The notes under the pieces: model-generated | What the model saw: only the letters and a program-made list of their open reading frames with translations | Told to the model about the DNA's origin: nothing | The model's database searches: none | Assembly (NCBI RefSeq): GCF_016597785.1 | Contig: NZ_JAENJG010000001.1 | Coordinates: 744,001-808,000 of the forward strand | DNA length: 64,000 nt | Direction of reading: 5' to 3' | Source of the DNA: Leucobacter sp. L43 | GTDB taxonomy: Bacteria > Actinomycetota > Actinomycetes > Actinomycetales > Microbacteriaceae | Part shown: positions 52,077 through 57,451 of the stretch, piece by piece | Layout of the letters: each line of letters begins with the position of its first letter | Numbering within the stretch: position 1 is the first letter of the stretch | Made by a program: the position numbers and the translations under genes

Positions 52077-52297
52077 TCCTTTCCTGCGCCGCCTCGATGC
52101 GGCATCGGGCTCAGAGCCCCCGATCCACCGTATCGCGTCTTCCGCGCATGAGCGCACCGCGCCCGCTGAGCGGGATGCGGCGGGCGCGTGCGCCCGGTGC
52201 GACCCGGCGCAGGCGATGCAGTCGTCGACCCGAGCGCGCTCCGAGGATCGGGGCGGACGAGCCACTCGTGCTGCGTCGAGCATCGAACTCGACACCC

Positions 52298-52316
52298 CAG
52301 TGCATGATGCGAACGT
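52298..52316 (+). repeat. Inverted repeat flanking ssrA, 3' copy
   Basis: CAGTGCATGATGCGAACGT occurs here and, as its exact reverse complement, at 52724–52742. This copy ends five bases beyond the 3' end of mature tmRNA. The two copies enclose the whole ssrA gene. Confidence 0.95.
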
Positions 52317-52321
52317 ATCGG

Positions 52322-52691
52322 TGGAGCCGCGGGGAATTGAACCCCGGTCCACTTCGACGATTCCGTGCCTTCTACGAGCGTAGTTCGTGAAAACGTTCTA
52401 CTCGGCCCCGCACTTTGCCACGAACACCTAGTGCGACAGACCCAGCCTCAGAAAAAGTCCCGATACGCCCTGAGACTCGACGTACCAGCAAGCTTCCTAG
52501 ATGACGCCAGAAAAACGGGGCGGAAGCTCACCCGATCTGACGGACTCGGTCTCGTGCTTAGGCAGCGAGAGCGAAGTCGGTGCGCTTAACGTTGGCACCT
52601 ATGGTTTGCGAAGGGCGTTTACGAGATAACTCCGCGTCCTCGGCCCGCTTCTCACAGTCTCAAAATCGACGTGTCGAAACCGATCGGCCCC
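52322..52691 (-). ncRNA. ssrA: Transfer-messenger RNA (tmRNA)
   Basis: tmRNA rescues stalled ribosomes with SmpB. The 5' end GGGGCCG pairs with CGGCTCC at the 3' end to form the acceptor stem, the 5' region has the conserved GGTTTCGACA, and the T-arm reads GGTTCAATTCC near the 3' end. The tag reading frame (52596 down to stop at 52558) gives ANVKRTDFALAA, ending in the ALAA degron. CCA is not encoded. smpB lies about 780 bases upstream. Ends are estimated from base pairing. Confidence 0.95.
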
Positions 52692-52697
52692 GTAGGT

Positions 52698-52716
52698 GCA
52701 CCGGATTAACCGGTGC
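52698..52716 (-). other. Hairpin in the 5' flank of ssrA
   Basis: A perfect 7-bp stem GCACCGG/CCGGTGC with loop TTAAT lies six bases before the mature 5' end and inside the flanking 19-bp repeat. It could guide 5' processing. Confidence 0.6.
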
Positions 52717-52723
52717 GGTCGGG

Positions 52724-52742
52724 ACGTTCGCATCATGCACTG
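52724..52742 (-). repeat. Inverted repeat flanking ssrA, 5' copy
   Basis: Read on the minus strand it is CAGTGCATGATGCGAACGT, identical over 19 bases to the copy at 52298–52316 in opposite orientation. It starts 32 bases before mature tmRNA. Confidence 0.95.
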
Positions 52743-52844
52743 TGGACTTGTCAGTTCCGGCGCGAAGGCCGGTTCCACCGGTGAATCACCGGAACGTCCA
52801 GTCTACCAGCTCGGGCGACGCGGGGCGAGTCTCTCCCCCTTCGC

Positions 52845-53474
52845 TCATTCCGCTCGCAGCGCACGCGGGTCGACACCGAGGCTCCACCCCGCGACGTCGG
52901 CCACGAAGTGCCGGAACGCGGGATGCTCGAAGGGTGACGCGTTGTTCGCATAGACGCCGATCGCGTCGACCGCCATGTAGATGCGGGTGCTCGCCCCGAC
53001 CGGGTCGGTCGTCTGGAATGCACCGGACGCGACTCCCGCCTCGATCAGCGCGACCATCCGCGCCCGGTCGAGGGATTCCTGCTCGTCGATGGCGACGGCG
53101 AGGTTCGGTACCGCCCGCGCGAGGTGCCTCGCATTGAGCCAGAGACGGCACAGCTCGACGGCCTCCGGGCTCTCGGCTCGCCGAACGAACCCTGACATCT
53201 GCGCCAGCGGCGCATCCTCCTCGCCGAACAGCCAATCGCGCTCGGCCGTCACTGCGAGCACGAACGCTTCGATGACGAGCACCTCGACGGCGGAGAAGTA
53301 GTGGCTGATCAAGCCGGGACGAACCCCGAGCGGCTCGGCTACCGCGCGGAGCGTCACGCGCTCGAGGCCGTCACGGCGGGCGATGGCGGCGGCCTCCGCG
53401 AGAATCTCGGCCCGACGCACCTCGGCCGACTTGCGCACCCGCGACGGGGAAGCATCGCCTCCCACGCGCGTCAC
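52845..53474 (-). CDS. TetR-family transcriptional regulator
   Basis: The 209-residue protein has an N-terminal TetR helix-turn-helix ([39 protein letters not shown]) and a helical ligand domain. Its start overlaps the smpB stop by four bases, so it is co-translated with smpB, an unusual partner. No transporter or enzyme gene stands beside it. Ligand and target are unknown. Confidence 0.87.
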
Positions 53475-53947
53475 TCGCCCATGCGGTTGCGCTGGCGCAT
53501 GGCGCGCTCGGCTTCGCGCTTGTCCTGCTGCTCGCGCAGCGTCTGCCGCTTGTCGTACTCGCGCTTACCGCGAGCGAGCGCGACCTCGACCTTCGCGCGG
53601 CCGTCCAGGAAGTACATCTTCAGGGGGACGATCGTCATGCCGCCCTCACGCGTCTTCTGCCACAGCTTGTCGATCTCCTGCCGGTGCAGCAGCAGCTTCC
53701 GCTTGCGGCGCGGCGCGTGATTCGTCCACGAACCGTTCAGATACTCGGGAATGTACGCGGCATCGAGCCACGCCTCACCGTTCTCGATGAAGACGTATCC
53801 GTCGACGAGCGAGGCGCGCCCCATGCGGAGGGACTTCACCTCACTGCCGGTGAGCACCATTCCAGCCTCGTAGGTGTCGAGGATCTGGTATTCGTGCCGA
53901 GCCTTCTTGTTCGAGGCGATCAGCTTCTCGCCGGTCTCCTTGGGCAT
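53471..53947 (-). CDS. smpB: SsrA-binding protein SmpB
   Basis: SmpB delivers tmRNA to stalled ribosomes. The 158-residue protein shows [59 protein letters not shown] and the basic C-terminal tail ([20 protein letters not shown]) that enters the mRNA channel. The ATG at 53947 gives the standard [13 protein letters not shown] start. It lies between ftsX and ssrA, the usual ftsE–ftsX–smpB–ssrA order. Confidence 0.96.
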
Positions 53948-54013
53948 GGCACATCCTCTCTCTCGCGCGGCCGGACCTCCCAGCATAGCGCGATGCGCAC
54001 CGGCAGTACGCAG

Positions 54014-54091: not shown

Positions 54092-55006
54092 CTACACCCG
54101 CAAGTAGCGGGTGATCGCAATCTTCGCGGCGATGGCAGAGAGCACCACGCCGACGAGTATGAGTATCGGCGGCACCACGAGCGATTGCTCGACCGTGATG
54201 TAGCTCGTGAACGGCACCTCGGTCGCCAGGAATCCCTGGACGAAGAACTTCACGATCGCGACGGATGCGGCGCTCGCGAGCACCGCGCCGATGAGCGCGG
54301 CGATGATCCCCTCCAATATGAAGGGCGTTTGTATGAACCGGTTCGAGGCGCCGACGAGGCGCATGATGCCGATCTCCCGACGGCGTGAATACGCCGACAG
54401 CCGGATCGTGGTCGAGATGAGGAGCATCGCGGCGATGAGCATGAGACCGGCGATGGCGATGGCGGTGTAGCTCGCGACGCCGAGGAACAGGAAGATGCGA
54501 TCCAGTAGACTGCGCTGATCCGAGACGCTCTGCACGCCGGGGATGCCGGCGAAGGTCTCCTGGATGATGTCCGAGCGCGACGGGTCCTTCAGTTTGATCC
54601 AGAACGTCTGGTTCAGCTGCTCCGGTCTCGTGATCTCGACGATCGGGTTGCCCTCGAACTGCTTCGTGAACTCCTCGTACGCCTGATCGTGATCGACGAA
54701 GAACGAATCGTCGATGTAGGGAGCGAGCGTGTCGGAATCGAGCGCGGCCTGCACGGCGGCGATCTCCTCCTCCCCGGCATCCGTCCCCGAGCACGTCGCA
54801 CTCTGGTCGTAGTCGGTGCACAGGTAGACCGCGACCTGAGCGCGGTCGAACCAGAACGTCTTCATCTGCTGGATCTGCAGCTGCATCAGAATCGCTGCGC
54901 CCACGAACGTGAGCGATACGAAGGTGACGAGCACTACCGAGATCACCACGGAGAGGTTGCGACGGAAGCCGCTCCAGACCTCTCCCAGTACCAGTCCCAC
55001 CCTCAT
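54092..55006 (-). CDS. ftsX: Cell-division ABC transporter permease FtsX
   Basis: FtsX couples FtsE ATP hydrolysis to peptidoglycan hydrolases at the septum. The 304-residue protein has one N-terminal helix, an extracellular domain (about 45–165) with two cysteines (LCTDYDQSATC), and three C-terminal helices with the FtsX/MacB-type segment RRREIGIMRLVGASNRFIQ. It overlaps ftsE by four bases. Confidence 0.95.
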   Translation of the reverse strand: MRVGLVLGEVWSGFRRNLSVVISVVLVTFVSLTFVGAAILMQLQIQQMKTFWFDRAQVAVYLCTDYDQSATCSGTDAGEEEIAAVQAALDSDTLAPYIDDSFFVDHDQAYEEFTKQFEGNPIVEITRPEQLNQTFWIKLKDPSRSDIIQETFAGIPGVQSVSDQRSLLDRIFLFLGVASYTAIAIAGLMLIAAMLLISTTIRLSAYSRRREIGIMRLVGASNRFIQTPFILEGIIAALIGAVLASAASVAIVKFFVQGFLATEVPFTSYITVEQSLVVPPILILVGVVLSAIAAKIAITRYLRV

Positions 55007-56166
55007 CGCACGGGCCCCACATCTGTCTGGTCGTCGTCTGGTCGTTTCAACCCGAGGCGTTCGGCGAGGCTCCCGGTCTCCGCCATCTGCACGGGGTCGA
55101 GGGGCTGGGCCGGCTCGAGGAAGCTCGGGATGGCGCGACCGTGCGGGCCGTCCGCGTGCACCGTCTCATCGATGTCGTCGTCATCCGCGTCATCGTCGCC
55201 GAACGGGTGGGGCTCCTCGAATACCGAGGCCTCCTTCGGGCGCTCTGCGGGCGGAGCGACGGGATCGTGCCGCTCCTCGATCTCCGGATCGGGGGCTGCC
55301 GCCGCGACGACCTCTGCGGCGGCGTCGACGAGTGCCGGATCGCGTTCCGCGCTGCCCTGCACCGCTGCCGACCGCGCGGCCTCGTCGAGCATTTCGGGCG
55401 CGAGTGCTGCACGCACCACGGCCTCGGAGGTGCGCAGCACCTGCACGCTCGCGTCTGAAAGATCTGCGATGGGGATGGAAGCGGTCTCGCCGTAACCGCC
55501 GCCCACTTCGTCGCGCACGACGACGCCCTGCGAGAGCTCGACGACGCGCTGCTGCATGATGTCGACGAAGGTCGCTTCGTGCGTCGCCATGACCACCGTG
55601 GTGCCAGCGGCGTTGATCGCGCGCAGGAGCTGCATGATCCCGAGGCTGGTCGCGGGGTCGAGGTTGCCCGTCGGCTCGTCCGCCATCAGGATCGCCGGCT
55701 TGTTGACGATGGCGCGGGCGATGGCGACGCGTTGCTGCTCGCCGCCGGAGAGTTCGTGCGGGAACCGCTTCGCCTTATTGGCGAGACCGACCATCTCGAG
55801 CGTGTCGGGTACCGCCTCCTGAATGAAGCCGCGCGACTTGCCGATGACCTGCAGCGTGAAGGCGACGTTGTCGTAGACGGTCTTGTTCGTGAGCAGACGG
55901 AAGTCTTGGAAGACGGTGCCGAGATTGCGGCGGAAGTACGGGACTTTGCGCGAGGAGATCTTGCTGAGGTCCTGCCCCAGCACGTGGATCTTCCCGGCAC
56001 TCGGCTGATCCTCGCGCAGGATCAACCGCAAGCAGCTGGATTTCCCAGAACCGGAGGCGCCGACGATGAAGACGAACTCGCCGCGGTCGACCCTGAGGTC
56101 GATACCGTCGAGCGCGGGTTTCGCGGTGCCCCGGTATTTCTTGGTGACGTTCTCGAAGAGGATCAT
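55003..56166 (-). CDS. ftsE: Cell-division ATPase FtsE with long C-terminal extension
   Basis: The first ~225 of 387 residues form the FtsE ATPase: Walker [11 protein letters not shown], signature [15 protein letters not shown], Walker [14 protein letters not shown], and H-loop MATHEATFV. Typical FtsE ends near residue 230. Here about 160 further residues follow, rich in Ala, Glu, Asp and Pro with an acidic run ([12 protein letters not shown]) and no recognised fold. The gene overlaps ftsX, and prfB lies upstream, the conserved actinobacterial order. Confidence 0.94.
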
Positions 56167-56253: not shown

Positions 56254-57363
56254 TCAGTCGTTCTTGGAGAGCGAGCGCCACCGGATTCCCGCAGCGATGA
56301 ATCCGTCGAGATCGCCGTTGAAGACGGCCTCCGGCTGCGAGGCCTCGTGCCCCGTGCGCAGATCTTTGACGAGCTGCTGCCCGTACAGGAAGTAGGAGCG
56401 GATCTGGTCGCCCCAGCTCGCCGTGATGCTGCCCGCGAGTTCTTTCTTCTTCGCGGCCTCCTGCTCGCGCTGCAGCAGGAGCAGTCGCGTCTGGAGCACG
56501 CGCATCGCGGCTGCGCGGTTCTGGATCTGTGACTTCTCGTTCTGCATCGAGACGACGATGCCGGAGGGGATGTGCGTGATGCGCACGGCGGAGTCCGTGG
56601 TGTTGACCGACTGGCCCCCCGGGCCCGAGGATCGGTAGACGTCGACGCGGATGTCGCTCTCGGGCACCTCGACCTCCGTCGCCTCCTCGAGCAGCGGAAT
56701 GACCTCGACGCCCGCGAAGCTCGTCTGGCGCTTGTCGGCCGAGCCGAACGGGCTGATGCGGGCGAGGCGATGGGTGCCGGCCTCGACCGAGATCGTGCCG
56801 AAGGCGTACGGCGCGTCGATCTCGAAGGTCGCGGACTTGATGCCGGCGCCCTCCGCGTACGAGGTGTCGAGCACCTTCGTCGGGTAGTCGTGCTGCTCGG
56901 CCCAGCGCAGGTACATGCGCAGCAGCATCTCGGCGAAATCAGTGGCGTCGTCGCCGCCTGCGCCGGAGCGGATCGTGACGACTGCGGCGCGCTCGTCGTA
57001 TTCGCCCGAGAGCATCGTCTGCACCTCGAGATCCTGAATGACCTTCTCGAGCGCGACGAGCTCCGCCGCGGCCTCCGCCGCCGAATCGGCATCGTCGGCC
57101 TCCTCGGCGAGTTCGATGAGCACCTCGAGGTCGTCGAGGCGCTGCTCGACGCTCCGCACGCGCTTCACCCGCGCCTGGCGATGGGAGAGGCCGCTCGTCA
57201 CCTTCTGAGCGGCTGCGGGATCGTCCCAGAGGTCGGGGGCCGCGGCCTGCTCCTCGAGCTCAGCGATCTCCCGATCGAGCTTGGGCAGATCCAGCACCGC
57301 AGCGATGTCTGCGTACGTCGAGCGGAGTGCGCGGATGCGGGCGGAGAAGTCGAGATCGAGCAT
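56254..57363 (-). CDS. prfB: Peptide chain release factor 2
   Basis: RF2 reads UGA and UAA stop codons. The 369-residue protein has the SPF anticodon tripeptide ([16 protein letters not shown]) and the catalytic GGQ in [15 protein letters not shown]. It is encoded in a single frame, without the in-frame stop and +1 frameshift used by many other bacteria, as expected for actinobacteria. The ATG at 57363 gives [16 protein letters not shown] lies eight bases upstream. Confidence 0.96.
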
Positions 57364-57451
57364 GGTGCTCAAGCTTACTCGCCGGATCGCCAACGCTGGT
57401 GGTCGCAGTTCTGCGCGGCTGAGGATCCGGGGGCCGGTATTCGGGCTCGAG

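Follow-up and report, generated by a model that had tools for sequence, protein, structure and literature searches.

A conserved RNA helix around the tmRNA gene of Microbacteriaceae and its likeness to ribosomal RNA leader-trailer helices

The inverted repeat and the ssrA locus

What an inverted repeat does around a tmRNA gene (ssrA) is the question raised by the window, i.e., the whole 64,000-nucleotide stretch of Leucobacter sp. L43 DNA analysed here. The original prediction had placed a perfect 19-bp inverted repeat around this gene, 32 bases before the mature tmRNA and five bases after it, and both the repeat and its spacing were recovered. CAGTGCATGATGCGAACGT lies at 52298-52316 (plus strand), and 52724-52742 is its reverse complement without a single mismatch. 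At 95%, the repeat reaches 22 nt (52295-52316 and 52724-52745); the arms are 407 nt apart. On the minus strand, the end of the 5' arm is 32 nt from the mature tmRNA, and the 3' arm starts 3 nt past the tmRNA end called by ARAGORN, i.e., 5 nt past the discriminator base. The mature tmRNA (372 nt) is encoded by a gene of its own, in one continuous minus-strand piece with a full-length match to RF00023 (1-374; Rfam bounds 52319-52691, 149.8 bits). The minus-strand order is a prfB-type gene, an ftsE-type ATPase, ftsX, smpB, a TetR-type regulator and ssrA, and the SmpB of the window shares 99% identity with that of L. chromiiresistens. The features are as follows.

56254-57393, minus strand: peptide-release-factor gene, prfB by position
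55003-56166, minus strand: ABC ATPase, ftsE by position
54092-55006, minus strand: ftsX
53471-53986, minus strand: smpB
52845-53474, minus strand: TetR-type regulator
52800..52805, minus strand: -10-like hexamer TAGACT, possible ssrA promoter (sequence inspection)
52757..52794, minus strand: stem-loop of the leader, lying after the putative start and before the boxC-like motif (predicted fold and sequence)
52740..52752, minus strand: base of the 5' arm, with the boxC-like motif GACAAGTCCACAG, which is a variant both of GACAACTCMACAG, the family consensus, and of GAGAACTCAATAG in rRNA
52724..52745, minus strand: 5' arm of the leader-trailer helix, perfect over 52724-52742
52692..52723, minus strand: spacer from the 5' arm to the mature 5' end, with a hairpin at 52698-52716
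52320..52691, minus strand: mature tmRNA (ssrA), tag ANVKRTDFALAA (ARAGORN)
52317..52319, minus strand: 3-nt gap between the mature 3' end and the 3' arm
52295..52316, minus strand: 3' arm of the leader-trailer helix, perfect over 52298-52316
52275..52293, minus strand: short hairpin GTCGAG-loop-CTCGAC directly past the 3' arm, a possible terminator with no T run (from the sequence; absent from the terminator scan)

A scan at ssrA with the sigma-70 consensus found no promoter. By eye, a hairpin like that at 52757-52794 recurs in many family leaders and is reminiscent of the boxB of rRNA leaders. A circularly permuted two-piece tmRNA, for which precursor processing likewise matters according to the available part of its literature, was considered and rejected, since the window tmRNA is a single continuous piece, its acceptor and coding pieces are not swapped and the RF00023 match runs over its full length.

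The repeat lies far outside what chance would produce, since 0.03 such matches were expected in the window with up to three mismatches, and the two matches found were the arms alone. The original prediction had also proposed searching the genome for further copies of the 19-mer; this search returned two exact copies, which are the arms themselves, no further copy within two mismatches, and two more places at three mismatches, against one for a reversed control. The suggestion that an old mobile insertion left the repeats as its ends, or that a protein binds them as paired sites on the DNA, fits a perfect inverted repeat at both tmRNA flanks; to this reading we give practically no credence, as the genome holds no other copies and, in 40 of 48 genera, the sequences differ yet their complementarity is kept. 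Transposon terminal repeats were thus discarded on the absence of copies elsewhere in the genome together with the family-wide covariation described below. Of the two outcomes that the original prediction had named as refuting, neither was observed: relatives do have the repeat, and it does not recur elsewhere in the genome.

A long-range terminator or attenuator hairpin for ssrA was also weighed, given that the 3' arm lies directly past the gene and is followed by a short hairpin. This is extremely improbable: the arms are 407 nt apart with no T run after them, and the single terminator-like site found lies inside the tmRNA. In fact, the terminator scan found no local GC hairpin with a T run at the repeat, and an intrinsic terminator was rejected.

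Conservation and covariation of the flanking stem

The tmRNA was matched in 296 of 299 family genomes (85 genera), and the study loci were drawn among the matches listed. Genomes were grouped by database family and genus labels. In the family set of 91 loci (48 genera), the window was joined by the 30 loci of highest score and by 60 picked for genus spread with their flanks unseen, and loci outside the family were chosen by the same procedure. For each locus, 90 nt upstream were searched against 60 nt downstream for the best ungapped stem, whose score was compared with 300 mononucleotide shuffles of the 3' flank. The ungapped score was used because gapped duplex energies over-extended the pairing and discriminated poorly; over whole flanks, a z of -3 or below was reached by 51/91 family loci, against 1/53 and 0/58 outside.

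The stem was detected at p<=0.01 in 78/91 family loci, 72 of the 91 lying at the floor of 1/301, and 40 of the 48 genera had at least one. For the middle half of the species it spans 18-23 positions, ungapped. At the same threshold, four of 53 loci from other families of the order had a stem (two in family f18, one each in f5 and f9), as did none of 58 loci elsewhere in the class, and none of 24 loci in other classes reached p<=0.02. The flanks of E. coli K-12 ssrA carry no such stem (best 7 bp, p 0.40). Furthermore, the rnpB flanks gave two weak stems (scores about 10.5) among 28 loci and the AACTSMAYA motif discussed below in none of the 28, so the helix is not a general property of stable RNAs. 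A set of named Microbacteriaceae gave a similar picture: of 80 genomes retrieved via SmpB, the fetched stretch contained a usable tmRNA in 60, and the stem was present in 59 of them, Canibacter oris being the single stemless case. Six genomes, Canibacter included, are shared with the 91 loci, and the remaining 54/54 had the stem.

The standard search left 13 of the 91 family loci stemless, several of them in small genomes. A wider search recovered a stem in L072 (p 0.010) and L073 (p 0.003), with the 3' arm 53-56 nt downstream, and the other 11 stayed above 0.01. Consequently, the stem can be lost and is dispensable there.

The two flanks match each other within each locus. Pairing of a locus's own 5' and 3' flanks exceeded the mean of 15 foreign flanks in 86/91 family loci, and all 15 in 64/91. 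Among the 18 Leucobacter-type loci, self pairing exceeded the cross mean in every case and the best cross score in 10/18, as expected where the arms differ little. Covariation was followed in an alignment (A1) of 44 sequences from 40 genera plus four more of the window's genus, all taken from loci with stem p<=0.01. In its 23-bp helix, 82.7% of cells were paired, against 71.0 in shuffles, a percentage biased upwards because A1 was chosen among significant stems; the own-versus-foreign comparison and the stem test over the unselected 91 loci are therefore the safer ones. Both-side changes occurred at 16 of the 23 aligned pairs (11.8 in shuffles; 3/500 shuffles reach 16), and compensatory cells numbered 153, compared with 51.3 in shuffles (sd 9.3; 0/500) and 15-30 in slid registers. 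Some outer pairs are often broken; at the first and at the fifth, this applies to 19 of the 42-43 cells. Within the motif described below, the A of the 5' strand is invariant at columns 21 and 23 even though its partner is unpaired in 19 and 14 of 43 cells, respectively, as if this stretch were kept for its sequence.

The flanking repeats are thus the two halves of an RNA helix of the tmRNA precursor, conserved with matching changes in one family, as the covariation shows. Pairing of the arms in the precursor and conservation in Microbacteriaceae, the former claimed and the latter proposed as a check by the original prediction, were both borne out, and the predicted fold of the precursor forms 17 of the 19 repeat pairs (z of the whole RNA, -5.1). 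The 7-bp hairpin described in the 5' flank does exist at 52698-52716; as a constant part of the structure it was rejected, since family members differ in the spacer between the 5' arm and the mature 5' end, its length ranging from 6 to 61 nt. Among spacers of at least 14 nt, 51/56 fold at -3 kcal/mol or better.

The boxC-like motif and the likeness to ribosomal RNA

The family 5' arm starts in a conserved TTGACAACTCMACAG, which is nearly the motif of the 16S and 23S leader-trailer helices and sits in the same place. Its core, AACTSMAYA, was found within 120 nt upstream of the tmRNA in 57/91 family loci and in 0/91 for each of three control stretches; its strict form is missing in 34/91 family leaders, and in the 57 loci it lies at least 21 nt from the mature tmRNA. 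Among loci from elsewhere in the order and class, outside the family, the motif occurred in 49/113 (controls 1, 0 and 0 of 113), and in 38/113 (within L095-L209) it ends 0-1 nt before the mature tmRNA. The boxC half of the design may therefore be older, judging from the position of the motif at the mature 5' end in these 38 loci. This same position, together with the rarity of stems outside the family (4/111 tested loci), would suit a leader element that acts mainly as a transcription or antitermination signal (boxC/boxA-like), the pairing with the 3' flank being secondary. We regard this as very unlikely, for it leaves unexplained the complementary 3' arm and the compensatory changes that extend beyond the motif (columns 25-33 and 42-45).

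Where else the motif stands was seen from ten family genomes, in which exact TTGANAACTNNAYAG gave 42 matches: 37 of rRNA type, four in tmRNA leaders and one elsewhere. The rRNA-type assignments comprised 24 matches beside an Rfam 16S, one identical leader at a contig end and 12 made by identical sequence; for 10 of these 12, the assignment was also based on the 2 kb that separate the 16S and 23S leader motifs. One mismatch added 22 matches, two of them tmRNA leaders, bringing the total to 64, against 15 for a reversed control pattern. Among the tmRNA leaders of the ten genomes, the copies of TTGANAACTNNAYAG were thus exact in four, had one mismatch in two and more mismatches in four, the window's included. 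In the window, CTGACAAGTCCACAG has two mismatches to TTGANAACTNNAYAG and one core base off the consensus (AAGT for AACT).

Moreover, the window genome's 16S, 23S and tmRNA helices are of common layout. In its own rRNA operon, the motif lies in the 5' arm of the 16S helix (GTCTTTGAGAACTCAATAGTGTGCACTT with AAGTGCATACTATTGGGTCCTGGGAGAC) and of the 23S helix, and CTCAACAGCGTGTGACAACG, typical of the tmRNA arms, is similar to CTCAACAGCGTGCAC, typical of the 16S arms. The statement that no equivalent had been described was therefore mistaken in kind, because the 16S and 23S leader-trailer helices of pre-rRNA share the layout, their arms also join the ends of a stable RNA, and the motif in the 5' arm matches TTGAnAACTnnAYAG. 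They differ in cargo, which in the tmRNA helix is a 372-nt tmRNA with its own gene, and among the loci tested a single family commonly has the tmRNA helix. Helix and motif as such are familiar from rRNA. Their application to tmRNA is not in print as far as our literature search reaches, which found no published tmRNA leader-trailer helix and covered few subscription papers.

The factors that would act on such a helix are encoded. An RNase III gene is present (TIGR02191, 202.7 bits, cut-off 166.25), as is a NusA gene with best PDB matches to 1k0r and 2asb/2atw, presumably M. tuberculosis NusA and its RNA complex. The genome's own 16S leader contains GAACTCAATAG, which we take to be the RNA of the NusA crystal and which is the point of likeness to the boxC/NusA RNA of the M. 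tuberculosis rrn leader; the tmRNA motif, unlike it, is a variant, and its NusA site is putative, being read from the sequence.

According to the available parts of the sources, the complementary flanks of E. coli rRNA form leader-trailer helices that carry boxC in the 5' strand, are cut by RNase III and are essential for 30S formation (PMC10250234). One model keeps boxC at the polymerase during rRNA loop-out; in E. coli, pairing was far more important than the boxC sequence, and the role of boxC in rRNA leaders is described as unclear (PMC10250234). The NusA of M. tuberculosis binds an RNA resembling boxC, and its proposed role is the presentation of the upstream half-site for RNase III (PMC6614801), and in P. 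acnes both rRNA helices showed staggered cuts, likely by RNase III (PMC3848588). The sources on tmRNA itself, again in their available parts, are more scattered. In Staphylococcus aureus, tmRNA was among the RNAs recovered with RNase III mutants, which the authors did not regard as proving maturation (PMC3386247), and in an rnc mutant of Streptomyces venezuelae ssrA went up, with direct targeting suggested and unseen in the induction experiment (PMC12096830). A study of inverted repeats found them enriched around tmRNA genes and, where the repeats are at least 12 bp long, within the genes as well, and the text available mentions no such helix (PMC10434271); in E. coli, another source uses ssrA merely as a stable reference (PMC5371410). 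For E. coli pre-tmRNA (10Sa RNA), RNase P is named at the 5' end and RNase III or RNase E at the 3' side, followed by trimming, in the part of the source available (PMC3968760). This route resembles the one considered below, with the difference that the E. coli K-12 flanks are without such a stem. The maturation of 10Sa RNA was reportedly also treated by Srivastava in 1990.

A proposed processing route and variation of the gene

We consider it likely that the pre-tmRNA carries a leader-trailer helix of the rRNA type, in which a boxC-like motif serves as a site for NusA, and that RNase III cuts this helix before RNase P and 3' trimming act. An RNase III-type processing stem is our best inference, and since the flank helix copies the plan of the rRNA processing helices, tmRNA is probably made and trimmed like ribosomal RNA. 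By analogy with rRNA, we infer RNase III cutting, NusA binding, looping and the order of events in Microbacteriaceae pre-tmRNA, the binding of NusA to the tmRNA leader being suggested by the likeness of its motif to the rRNA motif.

Transcription would start upstream, near the -10-like TAGACT, and the boxC-like motif of the nascent leader (TTGACAACTCMACAG) would be bound by NusA on RNA polymerase, so that the 5' arm might be held near the RNA exit as the tmRNA is made as a loop. The emerging 3' arm would then pair with the 5' arm into the ungapped helix that the covariation shows, and RNase III would cut both strands. RNase P, 3' trimming and CCA completion, established for tmRNA elsewhere, would finish the ends. 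As the helix joins the ends of the tmRNA, it should favour the acceptor stem and, until cut, shut out exonucleases and misfolding.

The covariation shows a helix, not an enzyme, and the same arms could form a protective clamp, which would shield the ends or guide folding; RNase III would then take no part, and maturation would proceed via RNase P, RNase E/J and exonucleases. Since E. coli K-12 and most of the loci tested from other actinomycete families are without the helix, tmRNA can indeed be matured without it. We hold a clamp of this kind to be unlikely here, because layout and motif are shared with the rRNA helices, which are cut by RNase III in E. coli and very likely in P. acnes, the genome encodes RNase III, and stems of 18-23 positions suit this enzyme.

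Whether the tmRNA gene of Microbacteriaceae is, as a whole, an rRNA-like unit, with a NusA boxC-type tether, looped-out synthesis and release by RNase III, is in our judgement an evenly balanced proposition. If true, the cell's supply of its ribosome-rescue RNA would be coupled to the factors of ribosome making (NusA and RNase III), and we know of no earlier non-rRNA client of that assembly-line design. A 372-nt RNA with motif and helix, alongside other actinomycete lineages with the motif and mostly without the helix, would make antitermination, tethering and RNase III release separable; an rRNA operon is a far larger system in which to tell the roles of boxC apart. In addition, the helix hints that tmRNA maturation has a defined route through RNase III and, although known here from Microbacteriaceae, may offer a reason for the response of ssrA to the loss of RNase III described in the available text on Streptomyces venezuelae (PMC12096830).

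The gene itself varies within the family. In 14 Microbacteriaceae loci (L289, L292, L294, L297, L301, L304, L307, L308, L311, L312, L313, L315, L361 and L365), ARAGORN and Rfam found no tmRNA within the fetched surroundings of smpB (up to 3 kb per side), and ssrA may therefore have moved away from smpB there. The 3' end of the window tmRNA (52319-52322) reads ACCG, with the CCA only partly encoded. Among the 18 Leucobacter-type loci, the CCA was encoded in five, and the remaining ends were ACCG (seven), ACG (three) and ACT (three); CCA addition must thus be needed in most of them. The tmRNAs of L015, L033, L072, L073 and L077-L080 have tags of 16-18 residues (e.g., ANSNSTVAAKKASFALAA), compared with the usual 12. 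Elsewhere in the order, two genomes hold a second full-length tmRNA match (L174 and L175 in G331; L115 and L176 in G391).
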